Source: Thermobifida halotolerans (GTDB taxonomy: Bacteria; Actinomycetota; Actinomycetes; Streptosporangiales; Streptosporangiaceae). Taken from it: a DNA stretch of 64,000 nt. Shown in pieces: positions 2,447-24,345 of the stretch (position 1 is its first letter; each line of letters starts with the position of its first letter). The position numbers were made by a program, and so were the translations under genes. The notes beneath the pieces were generated by a model that saw nothing but the letters and a program-made list of their open reading frames with translations, made no database searches and was not told the origin of the DNA. Location of the stretch: contig NZ_CP063196.1 in the NCBI RefSeq assembly GCF_003574835.2, forward strand, positions 2,914,001-2,978,000, written 5' to 3'.

Positions 2447-2863
2447 ATGAACAGCAGCGGCACCTCCGTCACCTGCGAACTCGGTCTGCGACTGATCGTT
2501 CCCGACCGTGCCCCCGTTCCCCTGGTCGCTCGGCTCGACTACTCCGTCAACGACCCCTACGCCATCAAGGCCGCCTTCCACGTGGGCGAGGACGAGCCCG
2601 TCGAGTGGATCTTCGCGCGGGAGCTGCTGACCGTCGGCATCGTCCGCTCGGTCGGCGAGGGTGACGTCCGGGTCTGGCCCTCCCGCGGGGAGGGCGAACG
2701 CACCATCAACATCGCGCTCTCCTCGCCCTTCGGCCAGGCGCAGTTCGATGCCCAGGTGGCCCCCCTGTCGGAATTCCTGCACCGCACCTACGAGCTGGTC
2801 CCGGCCGGTCAGGAAGGCGACTACATCGACCTGGACGCCGAGATCGCCGAACACCTCTGCTGA
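2447..2863 (+). CDS. ssgB: SsgB-type sporulation / cell-division activator
   Basis: 138 residues, the length expected for SsgB (about 137). SsgA-like proteins (SALPs) occur in morphologically complex actinomycetes. SsgB is the most conserved member and recruits FtsZ to future septum sites during sporulation-specific division. Family features visible are the ELGLRLIVP start, the VPLVARLDYSVNDPYAI block, the WIFARELL block and the acidic tail. The ATG has AAAGG about nine bases upstream; an in-frame extension to 2279 looks non-coding. The gene is monocistronic and ends in a strong hairpin shared with the convergent aminotransferase gene. Its presence indicates a sporulating filamentous host. 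Confidence 0.88.
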   Translation: MNSSGTSVTCELGLRLIVPDRAPVPLVARLDYSVNDPYAIKAAFHVGEDEPVEWIFARELLTVGIVRSVGEGDVRVWPSRGEGERTINIALSSPFGQAQFDAQVAPLSEFLHRTYELVPAGQEGDYIDLDAEIAEHLC

Positions 2864-3001
2864 TCGTTCCCGGCACGTCGCCCGGCGGCCCGGACGCCTT
2901 TGACCCCTCTGCGCGTCCGGCCACCGCAGACACCCCGGAAGTTCCCGATCTCTGCCCTACCCGGCCGCCCGTCGCCTAAACCGCGATATGCGGCAGAACG
3001 C

Positions 3002-3038
3002 GGAAATGCCGCGGTTCTCCCCGAACCGCGGCATTTCC
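3002..3038. terminator. Bidirectional terminator between ssgB and the aminotransferase gene
   Basis: A perfect 16-bp stem (3002-3017 with 3023-3038) with a 5-base loop, between two convergent genes and only 21 bases past the stop of the minus-strand gene. Confidence 0.85.
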
Positions 3039-3058
3039 CGTGTCTGCGGGCGTTCGGA

Positions 3059-3901
3059 TCAGGGGTCCAGGTCGGCCGCGCCGCGCTCGGCGAACACCGC
3101 CATGGCCTTGGCCGTGACCGGTCCCGGTGCGGCGGGCAGCGCCCGCCCGTCGACTGCGCGGATCGGCTGCACGTCCCGGCCGGTCGAGGTCAGGAACGCC
3201 TCGGCGACCCGCGGCAGCTCCGCCATCGGGACGTCCTCCTCCTCGCCGCCCACCCATTCCAGGACCAGTTCCCGGGTGATGCCCGCCAACGGCCCCGCCG
3301 AGAGCGGAGGGGTGAGCAGCCGGCCGTCCAGGACCACGAAGATGTTGCTTCCCGTTCCCTCACACAGGTTGCCCGAGGTGTTGGCGAAGATCGCCTCACC
3401 CGCGCCGCGTCGGCGCGCGTGCTCCAGGGCGAGGACGTTCTCGGCGTAGGAGGTGGTCTTCAACCCGCTCAACGCGCCGTTCTCGTTGCGGGTCCAGGGC
3501 ACCACGGCCACGTCCACCCGCGGCGCGGGCCGGGCGAACGGTCCCACGGCCACCATGGCGGTCAACTCCCCGCCCGCGCGCTCCGAACCCAGCGGCCCCG
3601 GCCCCCCGGTCACGGTGATGCGCACCCGGCCGGGATCGGTGTCCGGATTGGCCTCCAGCGCCCGGCGCACGCCGTCGCGGAGCAGGTCGAGGTCGATCTC
3701 CCCCAGCCCCAGCCCGCGCGCGGACCGCGCCAGCCGACGCAGGTGCCGGGTGAGCGCGAACGCCTCGCCCCCCACCGACTTGACCGTCTCGAAGACGCCG
3801 TCGCCGACCGTGATCCCGTGGTCGAGGGCCGGAAGCCGCGCCTCGCTCTCGTCCACCACGCGGCCGGAGCCGTATCCGGCCCCGGAGATCCAGATCTTCA
3901 T
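3059..3901 (-). CDS. Class IV PLP aminotransferase (aminodeoxychorismate lyase-like)
   Basis: 280 residues of the branched-chain aminotransferase / 4-amino-4-deoxychorismate lyase fold. Family landmarks are LDHGITVGDGVFET near residues 26-39, the PLP lysine in SGLKTTSY (Lys148), and the cofactor phosphate region NLCEGTGSNIF (about 178-188). Together these resemble PabC, which releases p-aminobenzoate for folate synthesis; D-amino-acid or branched-chain transaminases share the fold, so specificity is not certain. The ATG has GGGGAAG upstream; a longer frame to 4093 has no such site. No folate genes are adjacent. Confidence 0.78.
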   Translation of the reverse strand: MKIWISGAGYGSGRVVDESEARLPALDHGITVGDGVFETVKSVGGEAFALTRHLRRLARSARGLGLGEIDLDLLRDGVRRALEANPDTDPGRVRITVTGGPGPLGSERAGGELTAMVAVGPFARPAPRVDVAVVPWTRNENGALSGLKTTSYAENVLALEHARRRGAGEAIFANTSGNLCEGTGSNIFVVLDGRLLTPPLSAGPLAGITRELVLEWVGGEEEDVPMAELPRVAEAFLTSTGRDVQPIRAVDGRALPAAPGPVTAKAMAVFAERGAADLDP

Positions 3902-4237
3902 CGCTGTCTCTTCCCCCTCGGTCTCACCGGGTCCTCCGCCCCTCCCGGACGCGTCCGGACCGCGAATCCGCGCCGCCGTCAACAGGTTTGACCGGCTTCG
4001 GCCGGTCCGCTCCTGACCCGCGGGCACAGGAGTACCGTAACGAGTCGGCACGGAACGCTCCGCCCGAATCCCGCAGGTCCGCACCGCGACCACACCGAAT
4101 CCCCAAACACATCACAAATGGCTATCATCTGGGCAACGCTCGTAGGGCACTGACATCCATCCGCCAGCGACCGCCGGACAACCCGCATCCGGCTCCCGTC
4201 CGTCCACCTGCACACGACGAAACAGATCAAGAGAGCC
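3902..4237. other. Intergenic region between divergent aminotransferase and roadblock genes
   Basis: No gene seen. A TATCAT -10-like hexamer (about 4123-4128) faces the roadblock gene but lacks a clear -35. The region directly before the minus-strand gene carries its ribosome site. Confidence 0.4.
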
Positions 4238-4669
4238 ATGACCTCACGGAGCACCGCCCCTGGCGAACTGAGCTGGTTACTCGACGACCTCCTCACCCGC
4301 GCGGAGGGCACACACCACGCGATCGTGCTGTCCACCGACGGACTTCTGATGGCCTCGTCGAGCCGACTGGAACGTCCCGACGCCGAGCAACTGTCCGCGA
4401 TCGCCTCCGGGCTGCAGAGCCTGGCCGGAGGAGCGAGTCGACGCTTCGGCTCGGGGAACGTGCGGCAGAGCATCATCGAGATGGACAAGGCATTCCTGTT
4501 CGTCGCCGCGGCCGGCGAGGGCGCCTGCATGGCCGTGCTCGCCGACGCCGAGTGCGACGTGGGCATGGTCGCCTACGAGATGAACATGGTGATCCAGCGC
4601 GTCGGCCAGTACCTGGCCGCCCCTCCCCGCCCCGACATCCCCACCACCTCACCCCACGTCGAACGTTGA
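4238..4669 (+). CDS. Roadblock/LC7-domain protein
   Basis: 143 residues with one roadblock/LC7 domain (about 10-125): a helix (ELSWLLDDLLTRA), the strand HAIVLSTDGLLMASS, a helix with AEQLSAIASGLQSLAGGA and a final FLFVAAAGEGACMAVLAD strand pair. In actinomycetes such proteins (CvnB-like) usually sit in conservons with a sensor kinase, a DUF742 protein and a small GTPase, and are thought to modulate the GTPase. Here none of these partners is adjacent; tRNAs follow, so it is a solitary copy. GAGAG lies just before the ATG. The partner is unknown. Confidence 0.8.
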   Translation: MTSRSTAPGELSWLLDDLLTRAEGTHHAIVLSTDGLLMASSSRLERPDAEQLSAIASGLQSLAGGASRRFGSGNVRQSIIEMDKAFLFVAAAGEGACMAVLADAECDVGMVAYEMNMVIQRVGQYLAAPPRPDIPTTSPHVER

Positions 4670-4740
4670 GACGTCCGTTCGGTCGGCGGTTCCATCGGCG
4701 CCGACCGGACGGCACGCCCGCCCTCCCGCCGCCGCCGAGT

Positions 4741-4768
4741 TTGTAGGACCGCCGGAATCCGCTACAGT
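4741..4768 (+). promoter_or_regulatory. Promoter of tRNA cluster 1
   Basis: TTGTAG (4741-4746), a 16-base spacer, then TACAGT (4763-4768). The block around the -10 (CCGCTACAGT followed by CTTA) is nearly identical to that before tRNA cluster 2 at 7934-7961. This recurrence is the strongest evidence. Confidence 0.65.
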
Positions 4769-4822
4769 TCTTAGCGCAGCGAGAACGCCGCTTCTCCTTC
4801 GCGAAGAAGCCGGACTCTCCGC

Positions 4823-4895
4823 GCGGACGTGGCTCAGTTGGTAGAGCATCACCTTGCCAAGGTGAGGGTCGCGGGTTCGAATCCCGTCGTCCGCT
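4823..4895 (+). tRNA. tRNA-Gly(GCC), copy 1
   Basis: 73 nt. Acceptor stem GCGGACG/CGTCCGC, anticodon stem CACC/GGTG with loop TTGCCAA (anticodon GCC), discriminator T, no encoded CCA. First gene of a three-tRNA cluster. Confidence 0.95.
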
Positions 4896-4921
4896 CGAAG
4901 TACAGCAGTGTGGGGCACCAC

Positions 4922-4994
4922 GCGGACGTGGCTCAGTTGGTAGAGCATCACCTTGCCAAGGTGAGGGTCGCGGGTTCGAATCCCGTCGTCCGCT
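4922..4994 (+). tRNA. tRNA-Gly(GCC), copy 2
   Basis: Identical in sequence to the copy at 4823-4895, 26 bases downstream of it. The high dose of this tRNA fits heavy use of GGC codons in a GC-rich genome. Confidence 0.95.
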
Positions 4995-5022
4995 CGCGGT
5001 GGGGATCCGCAACAGGATCTTC

Positions 5023-5094
5023 GGGCGATTAGCTCAGTGGGAGAGCGCTACCTTGACACGGTAGAGGTCACTGGTTCAATCCCAGTATCGCCCA
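5023..5094 (+). tRNA. tRNA-Val(GAC), copy 1
   Basis: 72 nt. Acceptor GGGCGAT/ATCGCCC, anticodon stem CTACC/GGTAG with loop TTGACAC (anticodon GAC), discriminator A, no encoded CCA. Last gene of cluster 1. Confidence 0.95.
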
Positions 5095-5107
5095 CAGGTA
5101 CCAGAGT

Positions 5108-5144
5108 CGAGGGCCTGACCACGGAGTCCGTGGTCAGGCCCTCG
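5108..5144. terminator. Terminator after tRNA cluster 1
   Basis: A perfect 17-bp stem (5108-5124 with 5128-5144) with a 3-base loop, followed by TCCGTTTCC. It lies between the tRNA cluster and a convergent small gene and may serve both. Confidence 0.85.
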
Positions 5145-5180
5145 TCCGTTTCCGGCCACTCCCCCGCTCCGGGGCCACCG

Positions 5181-5411
5181 TCAGGGCCGCTCCTCGGTCG
5201 CGGGCAGCGCCACGTCCTCGTGGACGACGGTGCCGTCCTGGGCGGCCTGCCACGGCACCGCCGTGCCGTGGCAGGCCGCCCAGGACCGCGCCCACTCCGC
5301 GATCGGTTCGAACCGGCCGGTCTGCGCCTCGTCGAGCTCGATCACGCCCTCGAGGGTTCTGTCGGGCAGCGACAGCCGCACCCGGAACTGTCGGTGAAAC
5401 GCTGGCTCCAC
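5181..5411 (-). CDS. Small hypothetical protein (76 aa)
   Basis: 76 residues with no recognised family. The start (MEPAFHRQFRVRLSLPDRT) is beta-like; the middle contains two Trp and a Cys (EWARSWAACHG) and the tail is acidic. The GTG start is supported by AGGGGAG six bases upstream. It lies downstream of, and in the same direction as, the FKBP gene with a 68-base gap, so the two could be co-transcribed. Confidence 0.6.
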   Translation of the reverse strand: MEPAFHRQFRVRLSLPDRTLEGVIELDEAQTGRFEPIAEWARSWAACHGTAVPWQAAQDGTVVHEDVALPATEERP

Positions 5412-5479
5412 TGTTGACTCCCCTGTCGGGTGCGCCCGCGCGTCCCGGATCGGGCCGCGCGGGCACCGGTGCTTCGGGC

Positions 5480-5854
5480 TCAGTCCACACCGATCAGGTC
5501 GACGACGAAGACCAGCGTCTCGTTGGGCTTGATGACCCCGCCCGCGCCGCGGGAGCCGTAACCGAGGTGCGGGGGGATGACCAGCCTGCGCCGCCCGCCC
5601 ACGCGCATGCCCAGCACACCCTGGTCCCAGCCCGCGATGACCCGCCCCGCGCCGAGGGGGAAGCGCAGGGGTTCGCCGCGGTTCCAGGAGGCGTCGAACT
5701 CCTCGCCCGTGGAGTGGGCCACCCCCACGTAGTGGACGCTGACCACGGAGCCGTGCGCGGCCTGCGCGCCGTCTCCGACGGTGATGTCGGTGATCTCCAG
5801 GTCGGTCGGCGGCGGGCCGTCGATGTAGTCGATCTCGGGACGCTCAAGCGCCAT
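5480..5854 (-). CDS. FKBP-type peptidyl-prolyl cis-trans isomerase
   Basis: 124 residues, a single cytosolic FKBP domain with no signal peptide. It isomerises X-Pro bonds during folding. Motifs visible are VSVHYVGVAHSTGEEFDAS, the GWDQGVLGMRVGGRRRLVIPP core (about 75-95), LGYGSRGAGGVIKPNETLVFVVDL, and a C-terminal strand ending at residue 124. AGGGGCT precedes the ATG. It is the only gene directly divergent from gntK across a 235-base control region. Confidence 0.9.
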   Translation of the reverse strand: MALERPEIDYIDGPPPTDLEITDITVGDGAQAAHGSVVSVHYVGVAHSTGEEFDASWNRGEPLRFPLGAGRVIAGWDQGVLGMRVGGRRRLVIPPHLGYGSRGAGGVIKPNETLVFVVDLIGVD

Positions 5855-5943
5855 GGGTTCAGCCCCTCGTCATGGTTGGGAACGAAATCCCCAGCATAGG
5901 AGGTCACGTGGGCGGGGGCTGCCATCTTCCCGCAGTGCTCCCC

Positions 5944-5977
5944 GCCGTACGCCGTACCCCGTGGTCCGGCGTACGGC
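5944..5977. promoter_or_regulatory. Inverted repeat in the FKBP-gntK divergent region
   Basis: Perfect 11-base arms GCCGTACGCCG (5944-5954) and CGGCGTACGGC (5967-5977), 12 bases apart. Because both flanking genes are transcribed away from it, it is more likely an operator or a 5' leader hairpin than a terminator. Confidence 0.45.
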
Positions 5978-6089
5978 CGTCTTGCCAGAACGGCCTCCGC
6001 TGTGGAAACCTGCGGAGTCGCGTCGAGGCGGAGGCCGTCCGGCGGGCGTGGACGGCTGACTCCTCGAGGGCTGGGAAAGGAAGCGTCTG

Positions 6090-6599
6090 ATGCACTTCGT
6101 CTTCATGGGGGTCTCCGGCAGCGGCAAGAGCACCGTTGCGCGGGGGGCCGCCCAGCGGTTGGGGCTCCCCTTCGCGGACGCCGACGACTTCCACCCCGAG
6201 ACGAACATCGCCAAGATGTCGAGCGGCGTCCCGCTGACCGACGCCGACCGGTTGCCCTGGCTGGGATCGCTGGCGGCGTGGCTCGGTGAGCGCGAACGCA
6301 ACGGCGAGTCCTCGGTCATGGCGTGCTCGGCGCTGCGCCGCTCCTACCGCGACATCCTGCGCGGCGGCGCCCCCGGCGTGTTCTTCGTCCACCTGCACGG
6401 CTCCCGTGACCTGATCCTCGAGCGGCTCCGGGGGCGCAGCGGTCACTTCATGCCCTCCGAACTCCTGGACTCGCAGCTCGCGGTCCTGGAGATGCTCGGC
6501 CCCGACGAGGCGGGCACCGTCCTGGACGTCGCCTCCTCCCCCGAGAAACTGGTGGAGGAGGCGGTGCGGATCATCACCGAGGCGCAGGAGCGCCGCTAG
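6090..6599 (+). CDS. gntK: Gluconokinase
   Basis: 169 residues, a P-loop kinase of the GntK/shikimate kinase-like group that phosphorylates D-gluconate to 6-phosphogluconate for the pentose phosphate pathway. The Walker A GVSGSGKST occupies residues 8-16. DADDFHPETNIAKMSSGVPL and DRLPWL, both characteristic of GntK, lie between residues 30 and 55, and the lid region ACSALRRSYRD near 77-87. AAAGGAAG precedes the ATG. No gluconate permease or GntR regulator is adjacent, but an inverted repeat lies in the upstream region. Confidence 0.9.
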   Translation: MHFVFMGVSGSGKSTVARGAAQRLGLPFADADDFHPETNIAKMSSGVPLTDADRLPWLGSLAAWLGERERNGESSVMACSALRRSYRDILRGGAPGVFFVHLHGSRDLILERLRGRSGHFMPSELLDSQLAVLEMLGPDEAGTVLDVASSPEKLVEEAVRIITEAQERR

Positions 6600-6609
6600 G
6601 CCCCTGCGC

Positions 6610-7809
6610 TCACCCCGGCAGCCAGAGCAGTTCGACGTCGCCGCCCCTCCAGTCGGGCGGCAGCACGGCCAGGGCGTCGGCCGCGGCGGCTCCGCGCAGC
6701 GAGGCGGGGCGGTCGTGTCCCACGGGACACGCCCGGTCCTCCGCCACCCGCACCGCGACCAGTCGGGTGTCGGTCTCGTGCGCGCTCACGTGCCCGCCGA
6801 GCGGGTACCGCGCCGCGCGTCCGGCCTCGCGGTCGGCGCGCCCGGTCATGGCGCGCAGCAGCGGCAGCAGCAGGGTCAGGGCCGCGGCGAGGGCCGCTCC
6901 GGGGTTGCCGGGCAGGCCCACCACCACGGGGCCCGGCCGCTGCTCCCCCGCCAGTCGGGCGAGCAACTGCGGGTGCCCCGGGCGGCAGCGCACCCCGTCC
7001 ACCAGGACGGCGGCCCCGAGTTCGGTGAGAGCGCCGCGCAGGTGGTCGGCGGGGCCCTTCGAGGACGCACCGCACACCACGACGACCGACTCGTCGCCGG
7101 TGTCGGCGAGCGCCGAGACCAGCGCCCCGAAACCGTCGGGCACGTCGCGGACCGAGGTGAGCACGCCGCCGCCCGCGGCCACCAGGCCGGGCAGCATGGG
7201 GCCGATGGCGTCGCGTACCGCGCCGGGGGCGGGAACCCCCGCGCGGACCAGCTCGTCGCCGCTGACCACGGCGCGCACCCGGGGCCGGTGGACCGGGAGG
7301 TGGTCGTGGGCCAGGCTCGCGGCCAGGCCGAGCACCGCCGGGGTGACGACGGTCCCGGCGGGCAGTACCGTCGCCCCCTCGGGGGTCTCCTCCCCCCGGC
7401 GCCGTACGTGGCGGCCGGGCCGCACGGTCCCGGTGAGCGCGTCGGCGTGGCGCTCCGCTCGCTCGTAGGGGAGCACCGCGCCGGTTCCCTCGGGCACGCG
7501 CGCCCCGGTGGCGATCTCGACGGCCTCGCCGGGCGACAGGGTGAGCGTGTGCCGCTCTCCGGCGAGCACCCGGGCCCGGACCGTCCACGGACCGGGCCCG
7601 GCGACCGCGTAGCCGTCCATGGCCGCGGCGTCGTAGGCGGGGGAGGCGATCCGTGCGCGCAGGTCCTCGGCGAGCACCCCGCCCAGGGCGTCGGCCAGCG
7701 GTTCCCGGCGCCGTCCACCGGGACCGCAGCTCCTGCCCAGATCTCGGGCTGTCTCACGGGCCAGTTCCCAGGGCAGGGCCGATCCGTGTCGTCCGGTCCT
7801 CGTACTCAC
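6610..7809 (-). CDS. moeA: Molybdopterin molybdenumtransferase MoeA
   Basis: 399 residues. MoeA inserts molybdate into adenylylated molybdopterin in the final step of cofactor synthesis. The hallmark AAAMDGYAV lies near residues 60-70, the GARVPEGTGAV turn near 108-118, and the PGNP motif (GLPGNPGAAL) near 305. The third usual motif (GGVSVGD) is replaced by VVCGASSKGPADHL, a variant that I believe occurs in actinobacterial paralogs. I chose GTG 7809 because the preceding in-frame extension to 7917 is Arg/Gly-rich and unlike MoeA; its ribosome site is weak. It ends 10 bases from the convergent gntK stop. No other cofactor gene is nearby. Confidence 0.87.
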   Translation of the reverse strand: MSTRTGRHGSALPWELARETARDLGRSCGPGGRRREPLADALGGVLAEDLRARIASPAYDAAAMDGYAVAGPGPWTVRARVLAGERHTLTLSPGEAVEIATGARVPEGTGAVLPYERAERHADALTGTVRPGRHVRRRGEETPEGATVLPAGTVVTPAVLGLAASLAHDHLPVHRPRVRAVVSGDELVRAGVPAPGAVRDAIGPMLPGLVAAGGGVLTSVRDVPDGFGALVSALADTGDESVVVVCGASSKGPADHLRGALTELGAAVLVDGVRCRPGHPQLLARLAGEQRPGPVVVGLPGNPGAALAAALTLLLPLLRAMTGRADREAGRAARYPLGGHVSAHETDTRLVAVRVAEDRACPVGHDRPASLRGAAAADALAVLPPDWRGGDVELLWLPG

Positions 7810-7933
7810 TTCGCCAGAGCCGCCGTGTCGTCGCACGTCTCCCTTATATCCCGCCCGCCTCGTCCATCCGCGCAGGACCGGCCCGCCGTGCCGTCTCGGG
7901 GACCGGTTCGCGGACACCGGTGCCCTGTTCGAT

Positions 7934-7961
7934 TTGCCGTCTGGGCAGATTCCGCTACAGT
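7934..7961 (+). promoter_or_regulatory. Promoter of tRNA cluster 2
   Basis: TTGCCG (7934-7939), a 16-base spacer, then TACAGT (7956-7961). The block around the -10 matches that of cluster 1 almost base for base, indicating paralogous tRNA operons. Confidence 0.7.
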
Positions 7962-8014
7962 GCTTAATGCACGAGGGTGCGGGACCGGGGTGCCGGTCCG
8001 GTACCGAACGGCAC

Positions 8015-8087
8015 GCGGACGTGGCTCAGTTGGTAGAGCATCACCTTGCCAAGGTGAGGGTCGCGGGTTCGAATCCCGTCGTCCGCT
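8015..8087 (+). tRNA. tRNA-Gly(GCC), copy 3
   Basis: Identical 73-nt sequence to the two copies in cluster 1 (anticodon loop TTGCCAA). First gene of cluster 2. Confidence 0.95.
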
Positions 8088-8129
8088 CGGAGATCGACGG
8101 TGAGAGTCATCCCACCGTCTGCTTTATCC

Positions 8130-8200
8130 GGTGGAGTGGCCGAGAGGCGAGGCAGCGGCCTGCAAAGCCGTCCACACGGGTTCAAATCCCGTCTCCACCT
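8130..8200 (+). tRNA. tRNA-Cys(GCA)
   Basis: 71 nt. Acceptor GGTGGAG/CTCCACC, anticodon stem CGGC/GCCG with loop CTGCAAA (anticodon GCA), T arm ACGGG/CCCGT with loop TTCAAAT, discriminator T, no encoded CCA. Confidence 0.94.
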
Positions 8201-8217
8201 CTGAGTCCTGACGACTC

Positions 8218-8289
8218 GGGCGATTAGCTCAGTGGGAGAGCGCTACCTTGACACGGTAGAGGTCACTGGTTCAATCCCAGTATCGCCCA
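8218..8289 (+). tRNA. tRNA-Val(GAC), copy 2
   Basis: Identical to the tRNA-Val(GAC) of cluster 1 (anticodon loop TTGACAC). Last gene of cluster 2. Confidence 0.95.
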
Positions 8290-8347
8290 CCACGATCCAC
8301 TCGGATCAGAGGCTTCTGGCTTGCAGGGGCCGAGAGGCCATCGGCGA

Positions 8348-8371
8348 AGCGGGCTCCTGGAGGAGCCCGCT
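8348..8371 (+). terminator. Terminator after tRNA cluster 2
   Basis: A perfect 10-bp stem (8348-8357 with 8362-8371) with a 4-base loop, running directly into TTTCTGCGT. Confidence 0.82.
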
Positions 8372-8434
8372 TTCTGCGTCCTCATGGCGATACTCTCCGA
8401 GTTCGGACGCCACGGCAAACAGCCGTTTCGGCTT

Positions 8435-8477
8435 CCCCGGGGCCCTCCGGCGCGCAGCGCGCCGGAGGGCCCCGGGG
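8435..8477. terminator. Long GC hairpin, probable terminator of the Atu4866 operon
   Basis: A perfect 20-bp stem (8435-8454 with 8458-8477) with a 3-base CAG loop and no U-tract on either side. It lies downstream of the minus-strand gene ending at 8584 and close to the tRNA terminator. Confidence 0.65.
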
Positions 8478-8583
8478 TCCTGGTCGCCACCGGTGCACGC
8501 TGCCGCGCCCGCGGGGCGGGCTGTCCGTCCGCCCGCGCCGTTCCCGGTACCGTAGCCCGCAGCCGTTCGGCACGGGGCACCGG

Positions 8584-8850
8584 TCAGTCCGGTACCTCCC
8601 CCTCCCGGTAGAGCACGAGGTGCTCGTGGTACAGGATGCCGTCACGGACGTCCCCGGTAGCGGTGAAACCGGTGTCGTCGACATAGTCGATGTGGTGGCC
8701 CGTGACGGTGTAGCGGCCGGTGTAGGCGCTCCTCCGGTCACCGCGCGCCTCGTCGTAACGGCCGTCGGGCAGCAACTCCTGGCGAATGTGCCCGTCCGCG
8801 GTCACCCACATCCCCACGTACGGGTGGGGTGCCGAGGTGCTGTCGTTCAC
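8584..8850 (-). CDS. Atu4866-domain protein, stand-alone
   Basis: 88 residues forming a single Atu4866 domain, a small beta-barrel family of unknown function. Characteristic segments are HPYVGMWV, RQELLPDGRYDEARG, AYTGRYTVTG and IDYVDDTGFTATGDVRDG. It is closely similar to the C-terminal domain of the gene just upstream: the stretch from RQELL to TGRY is the same in both. GTG start with AAAGGA and GAGGA upstream. It is the last gene of a four-gene minus-strand run with the amidohydrolases and regulator; the small gap (32 bases) implies co-transcription. Confidence 0.82.
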   Translation of the reverse strand: MNDSTSAPHPYVGMWVTADGHIRQELLPDGRYDEARGDRRSAYTGRYTVTGHHIDYVDDTGFTATGDVRDGILYHEHLVLYREGEVPD

Positions 8851-8882
8851 GTCCTCATGTCCTTTCGTCGCCGGACCGTCGG

Positions 8883-9602
8883 TCAGCGCCGGGTGAACCG
8901 GTATCCGGCGTGGTGCAGGACCCCGTCGCGGAACTCCCCGAAGGCCCAGAATCCCAGGTCGTCCAGGTAGTCGATACGGGAACCGCTGATCCAGTAGCGG
9001 CCGGTGTAGGCGCTCCTCCGGTCACCGCGCGCCTCGTCGTAACGGCCGTCGGGCAGCAGCTCCTGGCGGACGAACCCGTTCTCGTCGACCCACAGCCCGG
9101 TGTAGGGGTGGTCCGGGTCGTGTTCGGGTTCTCTCACCTCGTCGGGCGTGCTGTCGGGGTCCTCGACCTTCCGCCCGTTCCAGAGGCGGACCCGGCCTTC
9201 GGTGATCAGCAGGTCGAGGTGGCCTCCTCTGGCCGGAACGGCGCCCTGGGGCGTCTTTGGCGCGTCGGCGATCCGGAGCACCGCGATGTCGGCGCGCTCC
9301 CCTGGGGTCAGGGTGCCGCTTCCCCGGCCCCCGGTGAGATCGAGGGATGCGGGCAGGACGACGGTACCGGCACAGTCCAGCACGATCATGCCGTCGTCCT
9401 CGGCGGCCGTCAGCAGCCCCGGTCCCACCCCGACGATCAGGTCCCCTCCGATGAGGACATCCGCCTGGTGCCAGTCCCCCATCAGGGGGTCGGCCGTGAC
9501 GACGGTGCCGCCGGTCAGCAGCAGCGGGCGTCCTCCCGGTTCCCGTACCTGGGCCAGAGTCGCGTCATCACGACGCGGGCGGGTCGGGTCGACGGTGGTC
9601 AT
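8883..9602 (-). CDS. Amidohydrolase remnant fused to an Atu4866 domain
   Basis: 239 residues in two parts. Residues 25-143 are the composite beta-sandwich of an amidohydrolase (LLLTGGTVVTADP, then VVLPASLDL). Where the metal-binding barrel should start, the chain instead jumps to GSGTLTPGERADIAVL, the segment that normally follows the barrel. The barrel with its HxH and other metal ligands is therefore missing, so hydrolase activity is not expected. Residues 165-239 are a complete Atu4866 domain. The ATG has AGGAGAAGAGGA upstream. The frame is intact and between two related genes, so it is probably a functional binding or structural derivative rather than a pseudogene. Confidence 0.78.
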   Translation of the reverse strand: MTTVDPTRPRRDDATLAQVREPGGRPLLLTGGTVVTADPLMGDWHQADVLIGGDLIVGVGPGLLTAAEDDGMIVLDCAGTVVLPASLDLTGGRGSGTLTPGERADIAVLRIADAPKTPQGAVPARGGHLDLLITEGRVRLWNGRKVEDPDSTPDEVREPEHDPDHPYTGLWVDENGFVRQELLPDGRYDEARGDRRSAYTGRYWISGSRIDYLDDLGFWAFGEFRDGVLHHAGYRFTRR

Positions 9603-9637
9603 GGTGGTCCTCTTCTCCTTCGGGTTGCGGGCGGGGT

Positions 9638-11044
9638 TCACGAGCCGAGCCGGGCGAGAAGCCGGCCGCGGGAGTCGTGGACCTGCTCCCGCAGGGCGGC
9701 CAGGTCCACGTCGAGGACCTGGCCGTTCCATTTGCGGGGTTCGCCATCGACCAGGACAGTGGTGATGTTGCGGGCGTCCGCGCCCAGGACCACCGTGCCG
9801 ACCGGGTCGTTCAGCGGCATGTTGTTCAGGTCCTCGGCGGAGACCACCAGCAGATCGGCCCTCTTGCCCGGGGTGAGGGAACCGGTCAGCTCCTCCAGGC
9901 CGTTGGTGCGCGCCCCCTGGAGGGTGGCGAAGTCCAGTACGTCGTGCACGCCGATCCGGGTCGGTACGGCATCGGTGCCGTAGACGGCATTGACCGCGCG
10001 CATCCGCTGAACGGTGTGCAGGGCGCGCATCTGGGTGAACATGTCCCCGGCCAGGGCCACCTCCACATCGATACTCAGACCGGGTCGCACCCCGACGGCG
10101 AGCGCCTCGTCGACGGCCGGGATCGCGGTCTCCAGACCGATCTGCGCGTCGGAGGTCGGGGCGAGGGAGACCGTGGTTCCGCTGTCGCCCACCAGCCGCC
10201 ACGCCTCGCCGGTCAGGCCGGTGGCGTGGATCAGGGTCAGGTGCGGCCCCAGCAGCCCCTGCCGGGCCCAGGCCTGCACGGCCCGGGAGGAGGCTGCCCC
10301 GAAGACCGCGTCGACGCTGACGCCGATGTCCAGTTCCTTGGCGGCGCGCGCGAGTTCGGGCCCGTAGGCCAGGGCGGGGCCGGCGACCTCGTCCGTGGCC
10401 AGGGCCCCGACCCGTAGGGTCAGCATCCGGTGCGAGCCGTCGGCGTACTCCTCCTTGAGGCGGGCCAGGTCCTTGGGCCACTGCTGGTCCCAGGCGCCGA
10501 AGTGCGGCCCCATGGACGCGTGCACGCCGCGGACACCGGTGTCGAGCAGGGCCTCGACGGCGGCGTCGGAGTGCTCCCGGGTGCGGGAGTTGTGCGAGAA
10601 GTCGAGCATGCAGGTGATACCGCTGTCGATCGCCGACAGCGCGGCCAGCCTGGTCCCGACGTACATGTCCTCGGCGCCGTAGAGCGGAGCGTACCCGGCC
10701 AGGGTGACGGTGACGTAGCTCGCCAGATCGTCCACGTCCGGCATGATCCGGCGCAGTTGGGACTGCCAGGCGTGCCGGTGGGTGTCGACGAAACCGGGGA
10801 TGATGATCGTCCCGGTGGCATCGACGACGACCGCGTCCTCGACCTCCAGGCGCGGTCGCACCGCGGCGATCGTGTCGCCCTCCACCAGGAGGTCCCCGCG
10901 GTCCAGGATCCCGATCCCGGGGTCCATGGTGACCACGGTGGCGTTGGTGAACAGAATGCGCCGTCGGGGATCGCGGGACCGGCGCCGGATCTGCTCGAGT
11001 GCTTCGGCGGCACCGGGTTCGTGCGTGATGGTTTCGGAGCTCAT
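9638..11044 (-). CDS. Metal-dependent amidohydrolase / deaminase-like
   Basis: 468 residues, full length for the chlorohydrolase/cytosine-deaminase branch of the amidohydrolase superfamily. It has the N-terminal sandwich (FTNATVVTMDPG), the metal motif DTHRHAW (His89, His91), a later barrel His in LTLIHATGL, a candidate metal Asp in GLSIDVEV, and the C-terminal sandwich GSLTPGKRADLLVV. Such enzymes hydrolyse C-N or C-Cl bonds of heterocycles; the substrate is unknown. GAGGGAG precedes the ATG. The fused Atu4866 gene follows after 35 bases, and a candidate operator overlaps the promoter. Confidence 0.85.
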   Translation of the reverse strand: MSSETITHEPGAAEALEQIRRRSRDPRRRILFTNATVVTMDPGIGILDRGDLLVEGDTIAAVRPRLEVEDAVVVDATGTIIIPGFVDTHRHAWQSQLRRIMPDVDDLASYVTVTLAGYAPLYGAEDMYVGTRLAALSAIDSGITCMLDFSHNSRTREHSDAAVEALLDTGVRGVHASMGPHFGAWDQQWPKDLARLKEEYADGSHRMLTLRVGALATDEVAGPALAYGPELARAAKELDIGVSVDAVFGAASSRAVQAWARQGLLGPHLTLIHATGLTGEAWRLVGDSGTTVSLAPTSDAQIGLETAIPAVDEALAVGVRPGLSIDVEVALAGDMFTQMRALHTVQRMRAVNAVYGTDAVPTRIGVHDVLDFATLQGARTNGLEELTGSLTPGKRADLLVVSAEDLNNMPLNDPVGTVVLGADARNITTVLVDGEPRKWNGQVLDVDLAALREQVHDSRGRLLARLGS

Positions 11045-17179: not shown

Positions 17180-17392
17180 CGAACCTCCTGATACGAACGA
17201 GTGCGCTTCCCCGACGCCCTCGTACCCCCAGAGGAGATGTCCGTGCTGGGTCTTCTCCTCTTCTCATTGTGTCCCATGTACATCAGCAGCACCAGGTTGA
17301 CGAGGACCGAAAACGCCAAAAGGTCCACATCCCGCGGGCCCGACGGTTACCGTGTTTCTCCAGGCGTGGCCGGATGTGTGATTTTACTGGGG

Positions 17393-17962
17393 GTGCCCTT
17401 GAGTGGCCAGACCCGCAAGGCTGCTTGTGTCAAGGAACTCGTCCGGCGCGCCGCGCAGAACGACGAGGACGCCTGGGACGCGCTCCTGGACCGGTACTCG
17501 GGGTTGGTCTGGGGGATCGCGCGTTCATACTCCCTCCCCTTCCACGACGCGCAGGACATAACCCAAACAGTTCTGTGCAATCTCGCCGAGTACCTGACCC
17601 GGCTGCGCGACCCCGAACGCCTGGGGTCGTGGCTGGCGACGGTGACTCACAACGAGTGCCGCCGCCACCTGCGGATTCGTGGGCGGGTCCGGCCGTTTCC
17701 CGCCGAGGAGCTGGACGCTCCCGACCACCGCACGCCCGAGTCCGTCCGGCTGGTGGCCGAGGATGTCGACCGGGTGCGTTCGGCGCTGGCGCGGCTGGGT
17801 TCCCCCGAGAGCGAGGTGGCGCGGCTGGACCTGTACCGTCCCGGTCTGCCGCCGACGGAGGTGGCCCGGCTGGCCGGCGTGCCCGCCAAGGACCTTCCCC
17901 GGGTGCGGCGCCGTGTCCGCCGACGCCTCCACCGGTTGCTCAAGCGTGAGGAGGACCGTTGA
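17393..17962 (+). CDS. ECF-like RNA polymerase sigma factor
   Basis: About 189 residues. Sigma region 2 (roughly residues 20-90) contains YSGLVWGIARSY, FHDAQDITQTVLCNLAEYL and LGSWLATVTHNECRRHLR. Region 4 (about 125-185) ends with PTEVARLAGVPAKDLPRVRRRVRRRLHRLL. It lacks regions 1 and 3, as in ECF-type factors. The start is uncertain: GTG 17393 follows GGGGG closely and TTG 17399 is better spaced; the in-frame extension to 17201 looks like leader. It overlaps the next gene by TTGA, so the two are translationally coupled. Its targets probably include the neighbouring CHAT gene (inference). Confidence 0.8.
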   Translation: MPLSGQTRKAACVKELVRRAAQNDEDAWDALLDRYSGLVWGIARSYSLPFHDAQDITQTVLCNLAEYLTRLRDPERLGSWLATVTHNECRRHLRIRGRVRPFPAEELDAPDHRTPESVRLVAEDVDRVRSALARLGSPESEVARLDLYRPGLPPTEVARLAGVPAKDLPRVRRRVRRRLHRLLKREEDR

Positions 17963-18387
17963 CCGCCGACTCCGTGCCTCCGGAGCCTCCCCCCGAGGAG
18001 GTTCTGGCCGCGGCCCGGGCCGCCTACCGGATGCGCCGTCCCGACGCGGCGCCCGCCGCCCTGCTGACCGACTCGGCGACCGATCCGGTCCCCGGGTTGC
18101 GCCGGGGGCCCGCGTCGGGGCCGCGCCTGCTCGCCTTCGGCGTGGGCGAACTGGAACTGCACCTGCACGTCACGGTCCGCGGCGACGTCTGCGACCTGGC
18201 GGGCCAACTGATCCCCGCGGTCCGGTTCACCGCGGAGCTGCGGCGCGCCGACGGCGTCTCCTCGCACCCCAGCGATCCGGGCGGAGCTTTCGTGGTGCGT
18301 TCGGTTCCCCGCGGTCCGGTCAGTCTCGTCTGCTCCCCGGCCGACTCCGCGATCCCTCCGCTGGCGGTGCCCTGGACCGTGCTGTGA
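17959..18387 (+). CDS. Small protein with carboxypeptidase-regulatory-like beta domain, sigma partner
   Basis: 142 residues. Residues 12-40 are helical (EEVLAAARAAYRMRRPD). Residues 55-140 look like a beta-sandwich (LLAFGVGELELHLHVTVRGDVCDLAGQLIP, then AFVVRSVPRGPVSLVCSP), resembling carboxypeptidase-regulatory-like domains found beside sigma and CHAT genes in actinomycetes. It starts at TTG within the sigma stop codon (TTGA overlap) with GGAGG upstream. It has no transmembrane segment and no zinc motif. Tight coupling to the sigma gene suggests a modulator or sensor, but its function is not established. Confidence 0.65.
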   Translation: MTADSVPPEPPPEEVLAAARAAYRMRRPDAAPAALLTDSATDPVPGLRRGPASGPRLLAFGVGELELHLHVTVRGDVCDLAGQLIPAVRFTAELRRADGVSSHPSDPGGAFVVRSVPRGPVSLVCSPADSAIPPLAVPWTVL

Positions 18388-18544
18388 CCCGGCAGTCCGC
18401 AAATCCCCCGTAAAGCGGCATCAGTCCCCATTCCCCTGTTTTCCGGAAAATGCTTCACCGTGCGATGGAACGGGAGTTATTTCGCCACCTCTCGCATTCT
18501 GTGGGCGATACTGCTATTACTGGGTGTGCTGTTTTCGAGAAACG

Positions 18545-18581
18545 CACTCCGCACCCGATGAACGGATGTCCGTGTGGAGTG
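18545..18581 (+). promoter_or_regulatory. Leader inverted repeat before the CHAT gene
   Basis: Ten-base arms (18545-18554 with 18572-18581, one G-T pair) enclose 17 bases in the 251-base gap between the sigma-partner gene and the CHAT gene. It could be a terminator or attenuator separating the two units. An AT-rich stretch follows. Confidence 0.4.
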
Positions 18582-18638
18582 TCCATATTCGTTGCCCCGT
18601 TATTCCTCCGACCGATCCCCCACGGAAGGCGATAACGC

Positions 18639-20918
18639 ATGGCGGACCCGCACCGGCCCTCCAGGAACCTGCCCGTCTCACTGGTAGCACGCGACCCCGC
18701 CGAGGCACGGCGGCGGGCCGACCGGCTGCTGAGGAGGCCCGTCGACCCGCGGACGCGGGCGTCCGCCCTCCGGGTGAGCGGGCTCGCCGCCTACGAACTG
18801 GGCCTGGTCGACGAGGCCCGGAAGCGGTTGGACTCGGCGGTCTCCGTCGCCGTACGGGCCGGTCTGCCGGACCAGGCCGCGATGGCGCGGGCCTCCCGGC
18901 TCGGAGTTGCGGCCCGGCGCGGAGACGAATGCGGCACACTTCCCCCCTCTCCCTTCCGCGTTTCGGCTTTCACCCTGCTGGGCCGTGGCGTGGCGGCCTG
19001 CCAGAGCGGCCGTTTCGCCGACGCTCTGGCCGCTTTCGCGGCGGCCGAGCCCGCCTTCCGCTCCTCCTCCGACCCGCGACTGCTTCCCGGACTGCTGTGC
19101 AGCCAGGGACTGGCGCTGGTGCACACCGAGCGGTTCGGCGAGGCCGAGGAGGTCCTGCACGAGGGGCTGGCACTGGCCGAGAAGTACTCGCTGCGGCGGC
19201 TGGGCGCCGCCATCACCCAGAACCTGGGCTGCCTCGCCGCCTCCCGTGGAGACACCGCGCTGGCCATGGAGCGGTTCGACGCCGCGGCACCGCTGCTGGG
19301 CGCGGGAACGCGGCACCCCGCGCTCGTGCTGGACCGCGCCCACGCCCTCGCCGACGCCGGAATGCTCCGCGAGGCGGGGGTTCTGCGTCGCTCCCTCGGT
19401 CCGGCGCGCGGCGGCGGAGCCGATCGCGCGCTGACCGAACTGCTGTCGCTGAAGCTGGCGGTGGGGCACGCCGACACCGCGGCGGCCGAGGCCGCGGTCC
19501 GGCGGCTCCGGCACCTCTTCGGCGCCGACTCGTCGTGGCTGCGCGCTGCGGAGCAGATCTCACGGCCGCCCGGGAGCGCGCCGGTGGCGCCGCGTCCCGC
19601 TCCGGGCCGCCCATCGAGGGCCCCGTCCTCCCGCACCGCCACCCCGCACCTGGAACTGGCCGCGCACGTGGGCTCTCCGGACACGACGCGGGCACTGGGC
19701 GACGTCGCCGCGGCGCTGAGGGCGGGCAACGCCGCGGCCGCGCTGCTCTGGTCGGAGCGGTCCCGTGCGCTCACCACCGAGGCCCACACCTGTCAGAACC
19801 GGGAGTGGACGGCGCTGTTGGACCGCTACCGCCGCGCGCACGCCGCCTTCGCCGAGTCCGGTTCCGCGGAGGACCACCGCGAGCTGGCCCGTCTGGAGGT
19901 CGAACTCGCGGTGGGCCAGTGGCATCCGTGCTGCCGCCGACGGCCTCCCGCTCCTTCCGCGCCGGGCGGGGAGCTGCTGGACCGCCTGGCCCGCGGGCTC
20001 GGCTCCCGCGCCCTGGTCCACTACCCGGAACCGGACGGGGTTCCCGCGGCGATCACCCTGGTCGACGGCCGGGCGCGGCTCCACGAGCTTCCCGACGCCC
20101 GGACGATCGGCGACGCCGTCGCCGCCTTCGAGCATCTGGCCCGACTGCACGCGGTCACACCACGCCCCCAGACGGCCCGGCTGCTGGCCGAACGGGCCGC
20201 GGCCGTGGACCGGCTCCTGGTGGCGCCCGTGGCCGCGGCGGTCGGCGACCGCGACCTGGTGGTGGTTCCCGGACCGAACACCCAGACCCTTCCGTGGGGC
20301 CTGCTGCCGGGGCTGCGGGGCCGACCGGTCAGCGTCGCCCCCTCGGGGCGGGCGTGGCTGCGCTGCCGTGACCGGGCACGCCGGACGCGCCGGGAGCGTC
20401 CCCGGGTTCTGCTGGTGGCGGGCCCCCGGCTGGCGGCGGCCGAGGCGGAGATCAGGGCGGTGGCCCGCCGTCACCGGGGGGCGCGGACGGTCACCGGGGC
20501 CGCGGCGTGCTCCCGCACGGTGCTGCGCCACCTGGCGCGCGCCGACCTCGCGCACATCGGCGCGCACGGCTTCGCGTCGGGCGGCGCACCGATGTGCACC
20601 GGACTGTGGCTCGCCGACGGCCCGCTGTTCGCCTACGACGTGGAGCGGGTGCGCCGGCTGCCCTCCCTGGTGGTGCTGTCCTCGTGCGACACGGGACGGT
20701 CCGCGCCCACCGCGTCGGGGCTTCCCCTGGGGATGGCGGCGGCCCTGCTGGCCCGCGGCAGCGCCACGGTGCTCGCGAGTGTGCTTCCGGTACCCGACGG
20801 GGCCACCGCCGCGGCGATGGTGCGCGCCCACAGCGCGCTGCTGGCGGGGGCCGCGCCCGCCGCCGTGGTCGCCGAGCACCTGGCCGCCACCGGTTTTGTG
20901 TGCTTCGGGGCGGGATGA
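18639..20918 (+). CDS. TPR-CHAT protease-like protein
   Basis: 759 residues. The N-terminal two-fifths (about 1-310) are helical TPR-like repeats (for example ALRVSGLAAYELGLVDEARKRL, LLGRGVAACQSGRFADALAAF). A spacer leads to a CHAT domain at about 470-759. CHAT is a caspase-like cysteine protease fold; the predicted dyad is intact: His643 in AHIGAHGF and Cys683 in LSSCDTG. The protein has no signal peptide or transmembrane segment. GGAAGG precedes the ATG. It lies directly downstream of an ECF sigma factor and a small beta-domain protein, suggesting a regulated stress or defence-like protease. Substrate unknown. Confidence 0.82.
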   Translation: MADPHRPSRNLPVSLVARDPAEARRRADRLLRRPVDPRTRASALRVSGLAAYELGLVDEARKRLDSAVSVAVRAGLPDQAAMARASRLGVAARRGDECGTLPPSPFRVSAFTLLGRGVAACQSGRFADALAAFAAAEPAFRSSSDPRLLPGLLCSQGLALVHTERFGEAEEVLHEGLALAEKYSLRRLGAAITQNLGCLAASRGDTALAMERFDAAAPLLGAGTRHPALVLDRAHALADAGMLREAGVLRRSLGPARGGGADRALTELLSLKLAVGHADTAAAEAAVRRLRHLFGADSSWLRAAEQISRPPGSAPVAPRPAPGRPSRAPSSRTATPHLELAAHVGSPDTTRALGDVAAALRAGNAAAALLWSERSRALTTEAHTCQNREWTALLDRYRRAHAAFAESGSAEDHRELARLEVELAVGQWHPCCRRRPPAPSAPGGELLDRLARGLGSRALVHYPEPDGVPAAITLVDGRARLHELPDARTIGDAVAAFEHLARLHAVTPRPQTARLLAERAAAVDRLLVAPVAAAVGDRDLVVVPGPNTQTLPWGLLPGLRGRPVSVAPSGRAWLRCRDRARRTRRERPRVLLVAGPRLAAAEAEIRAVARRHRGARTVTGAAACSRTVLRHLARADLAHIGAHGFASGGAPMCTGLWLADGPLFAYDVERVRRLPSLVVLSSCDTGRSAPTASGLPLGMAAALLARGSATVLASVLPVPDGATAAAMVRAHSALLAGAAPAAVVAEHLAATGFVCFGAG

Positions 20919-24108: not shown

Positions 24109-24345
24109 ATGAAGGCCACGTTCCCGCCGGTCCCGGAACCGCCGGGACCGGAACCGAAGCCGCAGGAGCCCGGCCCCGTCCCGCCCGAGCCGGAGCCTCC
24201 CGCTCCCGGCCCCGTCCCGCCCGAGCCGGAACGTCCGGGCCCCGCTCCGGTCCCGCCGGAGCCGGAGCCTCCCGCTCCCGGACCGGTGCCGCCGGAGCGG
24301 CCGATGCCCGATCCCGAGCCGCCACCGCGGCCCGAGCCGATGTGA
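24109..24345 (+). CDS. Short proline-rich repetitive protein
   Basis: 78 residues, nearly half proline, built from degenerate copies of PEPEPPAPGPVPPE. No domain, signal peptide or membrane segment. AGGG lies three bases before the ATG, closer than ideal. It lies between a divergent gene and a convergent one. It may be a real small disordered protein or a spurious frame in a GC-rich repeat. Confidence 0.4.
   Translation: MKATFPPVPEPPGPEPKPQEPGPVPPEPEPPAPGPVPPEPERPGPAPVPPEPEPPAPGPVPPERPMPDPEPPPRPEPM
24165..24310. repeat. Degenerate tandem repeats encoding proline-rich segments
   Basis: About three imperfect units of some 45-50 bases, each with CCGGAGCC or CCCGAGCCGGA and CTCCCGCTCCCGG blocks, run through the small proline-rich frame. 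Confidence 0.55.

Follow-up and report, generated by a model that had tools for sequence, protein, structure and literature searches.

A candidate protease-gated sigma factor switch of ECF54 type in Thermobifida halotolerans and its relatives

On the + strand of the window (the whole stretch of 64,000 nucleotides analysed here) there lie, in this order, the gene of an ECF sigma factor, a gene for a protein of 142 amino acids which we call MID, and a gene for a TPR-CHAT protein of 759 amino acids (see Table 1). We propose, with a probability of about one half, that these genes form a cytoplasmic protease-gated transcription switch, of ECF54 type by its gene context, in which MID is an anti-sigma factor cut by the CHAT protease. 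In this scheme, MID would bind the sigma factor and keep it off RNA polymerase, and a signal would be read by the TPR array at the N terminus of the CHAT protein, in most relatives jointly with a subtilase. The signal would switch on the separase-like CHAT protease, which would cleave MID, perhaps within the linker that joins the helical part to the beta part, and the freed sigma factor would transcribe its regulon. The roles of MID as anti-sigma factor and as substrate, what the signal and the regulon are, and which of the two proteases acts first are parts of the scheme that we infer. The fragments of Csx30 and CalpT, the proteins cut in the two comparable systems discussed below, may need further degradation, so that the cleavage of MID alone may not suffice.

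Table 1. Positions of the features of the locus in the window
Feature	Position	Strand	Basis or remark
ECF sigma factor (sigma2 + sigma4 only)	17393..17962	+	likely start 17399 TTG; homologs immediately precede MID in 137/142 loci
Candidate promoter and ribosome-binding site, conserved DNA (GGTTACCGTG ... GATTTTACTGGGGG)	17345..17393	+	kept across relatives, ahead of the sigma gene
MID, small protein, candidate anti-sigma factor and protease substrate	17959..18387	+	profile, alignment, AF2 model of a relative
MID Arg48 codon, possible cleavage site (speculative)	18100..18102	+	96-100% conserved; adjoins the low-confidence helical/beta linker
MID-CHAT intergenic gap, 251 nt	18388..18638	+	contains CTGCTATTACTGGGTGTG at 18511, which is kept in part within the genus
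TPR-CHAT cysteine protease (predicted), 759 aa	18639..20918	+	Pfam, AF2, conservation
CHAT domain, residues 519-745	20193..20873	+	Pfam
Catalytic His643 codon	20565..20567	+	conservation; alignment to Craspase TPR-CHAT
Catalytic Cys683 codon	20685..20687	+	conservation; alignment to Craspase TPR-CHAT

The sequence-only reading had described an ECF-like sigma factor overlapping a small protein and followed by a CHAT protease, and all three are present where it placed them, except that the sigma gene probably starts slightly later. The product of this gene matches TIGR02937 (sigma70-ECF, NCBIfam, E=1.9e-18) and Sigma70_r2 (Pfam, 1.7e-11); with the sigma4 helices seen in the model of a relative, it consists of sigma2 and sigma4 only, as expected for the ECF54 type. 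The GTG at 17393 is replaced by GTA in three relatives (L034-L036), which hence have no start codon there. The TTG at 17399, preceded by GGGGG, fits the start in these relatives better and corresponds to a possible start codon in them; judged from this alignment, it is more likely the true start. The reading frame remains open on the 5' side of the sigma start, over positions 17201-17392, and this DNA is conserved across genera; it looks like the shared upstream region of a divergent DUF3145-like gene and not like sigma coding sequence. A promoter element common to the upstream regions of the sigma and CHAT genes (TTTTACTGGGGGTG / TATTACTGGGTGTG) was suggestive, but a rough count places it within chance, and we did not retain it.

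The three genes are kept together. Homologs of the CHAT protein were found in 46 of the 60 relatives, and the order sigma-MID-CHAT recurs among the 40 loci fetched. Among 198 genomes sampled evenly across the class, MID is present in 70 and a strong TPR-CHAT of the same family in 73; 69 genomes have both, one has MID only and four have CHAT only (Fisher p = 3e-47, a value which ignores shared descent and is not to be taken at face value). Of the four genomes with CHAT only, three carry a sigma gene at the locus, and two of these three also show a weak MID match (L108-L110). The joint conservation of the trio, on which the sequence-only reading had made its proposal depend, is far above chance. 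The gene family also reaches genomes outside the class but within the phylum, several of them with sigma, subtilase and CHAT genes nearby. The set is old and widely distributed among actinobacteria.

The tightest association is that of the sigma gene with MID. A sigma gene lies immediately upstream of MID and on the same strand in 137 of 142 loci, frequently with an overlap; in the window, the start codon of MID (TTG, 17959) overlaps the sigma stop codon as TTGA. The two genes share one frame with an intervening stop in four loci. No natural sigma-MID fusion could be trusted: the single unbroken frame (L137) coincides with a sigma match that is split in two, and it probably reflects a frameshift. 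In one family (f21), the sigma-MID pair lies megabases away from a subtilase-CHAT pair wherever the contigs allow a measurement (G099, G163, G172, G211), and both pairs are kept, so MID goes with sigma. In Streptomyces, 77 of 80 loci have MID, sigma and subtilase on one strand and CHAT divergent on the other. Two second copies (L050, about 5559-10203, and L059, about 2845-7600) comprise a subtilase, MID and a divergent TPR-CHAT, with no sigma match within 14 kb. These copies link MID to the proteases as well, and MID may have a role there which is independent of sigma. That MID is common to the sigma half and to the protease half fits an inhibitor which doubles as a substrate.

The CHAT domain is recognised with confidence (PF12770, E=3.5e-29, residues 519-745), and the protein is the only CHAT protein in this genome. 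That it stands behind TPR repeats, as had been claimed, holds in the AF2 model, which shows an N-terminal helical-repeat array followed by an alpha/beta CHAT domain (pLDDT 87, pTM 0.65), while the TPR profile matches in Pfam are weak. The His643-Cys683 dyad reported earlier is indeed intact: it is invariant in 156/156 CHAT proteins, and the two residues align in sequence with the catalytic H585 and C627 of the Craspase TPR-CHAT. Profile comparison matches it to the Craspase TPR-CHAT at E of about 4e-8 and to DdvA at E=1.8e-11; for the CHAT domain, DdvA ranks first both in Foldseek and among PDB sequence matches. In fold, Csx29 is matched with Z=31.4 and the separase ctSPD over 303 residues at 3.0 A (Z 26.1), with an rmsd of 3.0-3.6 A for the protease part (ctSPD, 7xc7). 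The long alignments with Csx29 and separase have a high rmsd (12-17 A) because the helical arrays differ; the CHAT domain alone is well matched. No membrane segment is evident in the protein (the maximal 19-residue hydrophobicity mean, 1.57, falls within the CHAT core), and Pfam finds no anti-sigma domain in it.

MID had been described as carboxypeptidase-regulatory-like. The match is real but below threshold (PF13620, 19.6 bits for a cut-off of 32.3, E=0.0012), and it recurs in just 4 of 33 relatives. A profile search of the PDB gave no relevant match, the sole chain at E<=1 being unrelated (0.51), and no match to a known anti-sigma factor or to Csx30. In the AF2 model of a relative (L090), MID consists of three confident helices, a stretch of low confidence and a beta-sandwich; CrdA is similar in structure to the beta part (87 aa, 2.3 A, Z 9.5), a likeness of common fold only. 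We read MID as a helical segment joined to a beta-sandwich, non-enzymatic and not a peptidase. As it stays with the sigma gene even where the proteases are elsewhere in the genome, it is a candidate anti-sigma factor and protease substrate, a role which suits it better than that of a free-standing sensor. A cleavage at Arg48 would be speculative. We looked for a separase-like preference for arginine which would have favoured this site and rejected it, as the position of Craspase K670 (separase D2151) is occupied, in the sequence alignment, by A724 in the CHAT protein of the window.

We folded sigma and MID of L090 as one chain with AF2, these genes being in one frame and the intervening stop being read as Gln. 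Several alignments in which sigma or MID fragments fell into the wrong half were discarded, and in the one retained we verified that both halves were covered. The model (pLDDT 85, pTM 0.61, from a mostly unpaired alignment and without an estimate of the inter-domain error) places sigma2 and sigma4 close to their arrangement in ECF factors bound by anti-sigma factors: 150 aa at 4.2 A for CnrH-CnrY, 158 aa at 4.0 A for RpoE-NepR and 155 aa at 4.7 A for SigW-RsiW. It is unlike the arrangement in ECF factors bound to RNA polymerase (about 27 A). As AF2 may favour the compact state, many training structures being anti-sigma complexes, the arrangement predicted by the model is only suggestive of an inhibition by MID.

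The sequence-only reading missed a fourth gene: an S8 subtilase adjoins the sigma or the CHAT gene in most relatives. The columns which are invariant in 16 sequences include D176, H216, S383 and N304, which on this conservation we take as the catalytic triad and the oxyanion Asn. A simple hydrophobicity scan found no evident signal peptide, so the subtilase is probably cytoplasmic. It is absent from the genus of the window and from related genera (G009, G010, G013, G021, G024), where the best matches are none or generic; in the genome of the window itself, the best match is a generic S8 protease far from the locus (E=1.1e-13). In two loci of family f21 (L099, L100), two tandem S8 subtilase genes adjoin the TPR-CHAT gene.

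This association has a published counterpart. A review (PMC8999054) describes for the actinobacterial ECF54 sigma factors a conserved context of carboxypeptidase, subtilase and CHAT proteins and reports a proposal of proteolytic control without anti-sigma factor; where it treats this neighbourhood, it cites Huang 2015 and Casas-Pastor 2021. The window has the CHAT protein and a carboxypeptidase-type protein, the latter by its sub-threshold match. The subtilase is lacking in the genus of the window and present in most relatives, and in the review it figures among the conserved neighbours without being strictly required. The system had been put forward as undescribed; this we reject because the gene association is already in the review. 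What seems to be new is the case for MID as an anti-sigma factor where the review assumes none and names a carboxypeptidase, the split arrangement, the form without subtilase and the explicit parallel with Craspase and DdvA. We found no experimental study of the sigma-MID-CHAT system among the open-access papers searched.

In Craspase (Csx29, Csx30 and CASP-sigma, of type III-E CRISPR), Csx29, a TPR-CHAT protease which shares the His-Cys dyad, cuts the partner protein Csx30 and frees an ECF sigma factor (PMC10028731). Unlike the Craspase locus, the present one has no Cas7-11/gRAMP and no recognised Csx31, and it belongs to the chromosomal core; the PDB profile search with MID did not recover Csx30, a remote similarity being possible. 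The same logic of protease, anti-sigma factor and ECF sigma factor is found in CalpL, which cuts CalpT and thereby frees CalpS (PMC11417357), but CalpL is a Lon-SAVED protease activated by cA4, whereas Pfam identifies a TPR-CHAT protein here. DdvA (PDB 8rot/8rw5) shares the CHAT homology and the link to anti-sigma function; it is a transmembrane anti-sigma factor with a CHAT domain, whereas our CHAT protein has a separate small partner. Separase has the same protease fold but serves in the cleavage of eukaryotic cohesin, and the position of the residue said to give it its arginine preference (D2151, which corresponds to K670 of Craspase, PMC9729208) is not an acid here.

The published proposal, that the proteases act on sigma itself and that MID is an adaptor, a chaperone or a scaffold, was put forward on the same gene context, agrees with the likeness of MID to carboxypeptidase regulatory-like domains and has a precedent in the control of AntA (ECF282) by ClpXP, cited in the same review. 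We consider it unlikely, since the link of MID to sigma is closer than that of the proteases and since the cascades of Csx29 and CalpL cut the anti-sigma factor and not sigma. The rank of DdvA among the matches of the CHAT domain would rather suggest that the TPR-CHAT protein is itself, like DdvA (PDB 8rot, 8rw5), the inhibitor or the sensor of sigma, its protease activity being secondary. This is the least probable alternative: a dyad invariant in 156/156 proteins argues for catalysis, the protein has neither an evident membrane segment nor a Pfam anti-sigma domain, and its gene is unlinked from sigma in family f21.

A defence role had also been envisaged, and the locus might be an anti-phage or programmed-death system in which CHAT is the death effector and sigma controls its expression, as CHAT proteases act in Craspase and have been linked to gasdermin-type death (PMC9729208). 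PADLOC likewise gives weak partial matches of the CHAT protein to BovA (73 residues, 29.5 bits), but no full match to a system protein. In the family relatives, the locus is flanked by homologs of its neighbours in the window, a DUF3145-like gene upstream and MBL-fold, phosphodiesterase-like and GNAT genes downstream (names read from sequence); family f21 still has homologs of the phosphodiesterase-like and GNAT genes beside its sigma-MID pair. A locus that keeps its neighbours from genus to genus and from family to family, at a core position of the chromosome and by vertical inheritance, is not what one expects of a mobile defence island; moreover, the set is kept in nearly all the Streptomyces loci fetched, and the module has no toxin-like effector gene. 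The RAMP-family genes of this genome form three clusters, at 0.91, 2.25 and 4.58 Mb (contig C1), which suggest type III CRISPR loci; the sigma-CHAT locus, at 2.93 Mb, is >600 kb away. This makes an immune role improbable. The search for CRISPR repeats near the locus yielded only proline-rich coding repeats (positions 24119-24327 of the window, with a 36-nt period) and other unrelated short repeats. The view of the three genes as one conserved functional unit is supported, and signalling by a sigma factor and a protease remains the most economical reading, as had been supposed.

Craspase and the CalpL/CalpT/CalpS system have shown that cleavage of an inhibitor can serve CRISPR systems to free a sigma factor. 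A chromosomal, vertically inherited counterpart in actinobacteria, made of the same three kinds of component, would allow this logic to be studied in tractable hosts, as most Streptomyces loci fetched have the set, and it would give bacterial CHAT proteases a role beyond immunity. The small partner of ECF54 would then be read no longer as a peptidase but as a probable inhibitor. We advance more tentatively, and at somewhat less than even odds, the wider idea of a stand-alone, non-CRISPR, house-keeping form of the Craspase logic, in which MID would be a new class of soluble anti-sigma factor, cut by the separase-like TPR-CHAT with or without a subtilase relay; its cleavage would control a regulon for stress or development that is conserved throughout Actinomycetota, Streptomyces among them. 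If this is true, CRISPR systems could have recruited their protease-sigma signalling from an ancestor similar to this stand-alone version.
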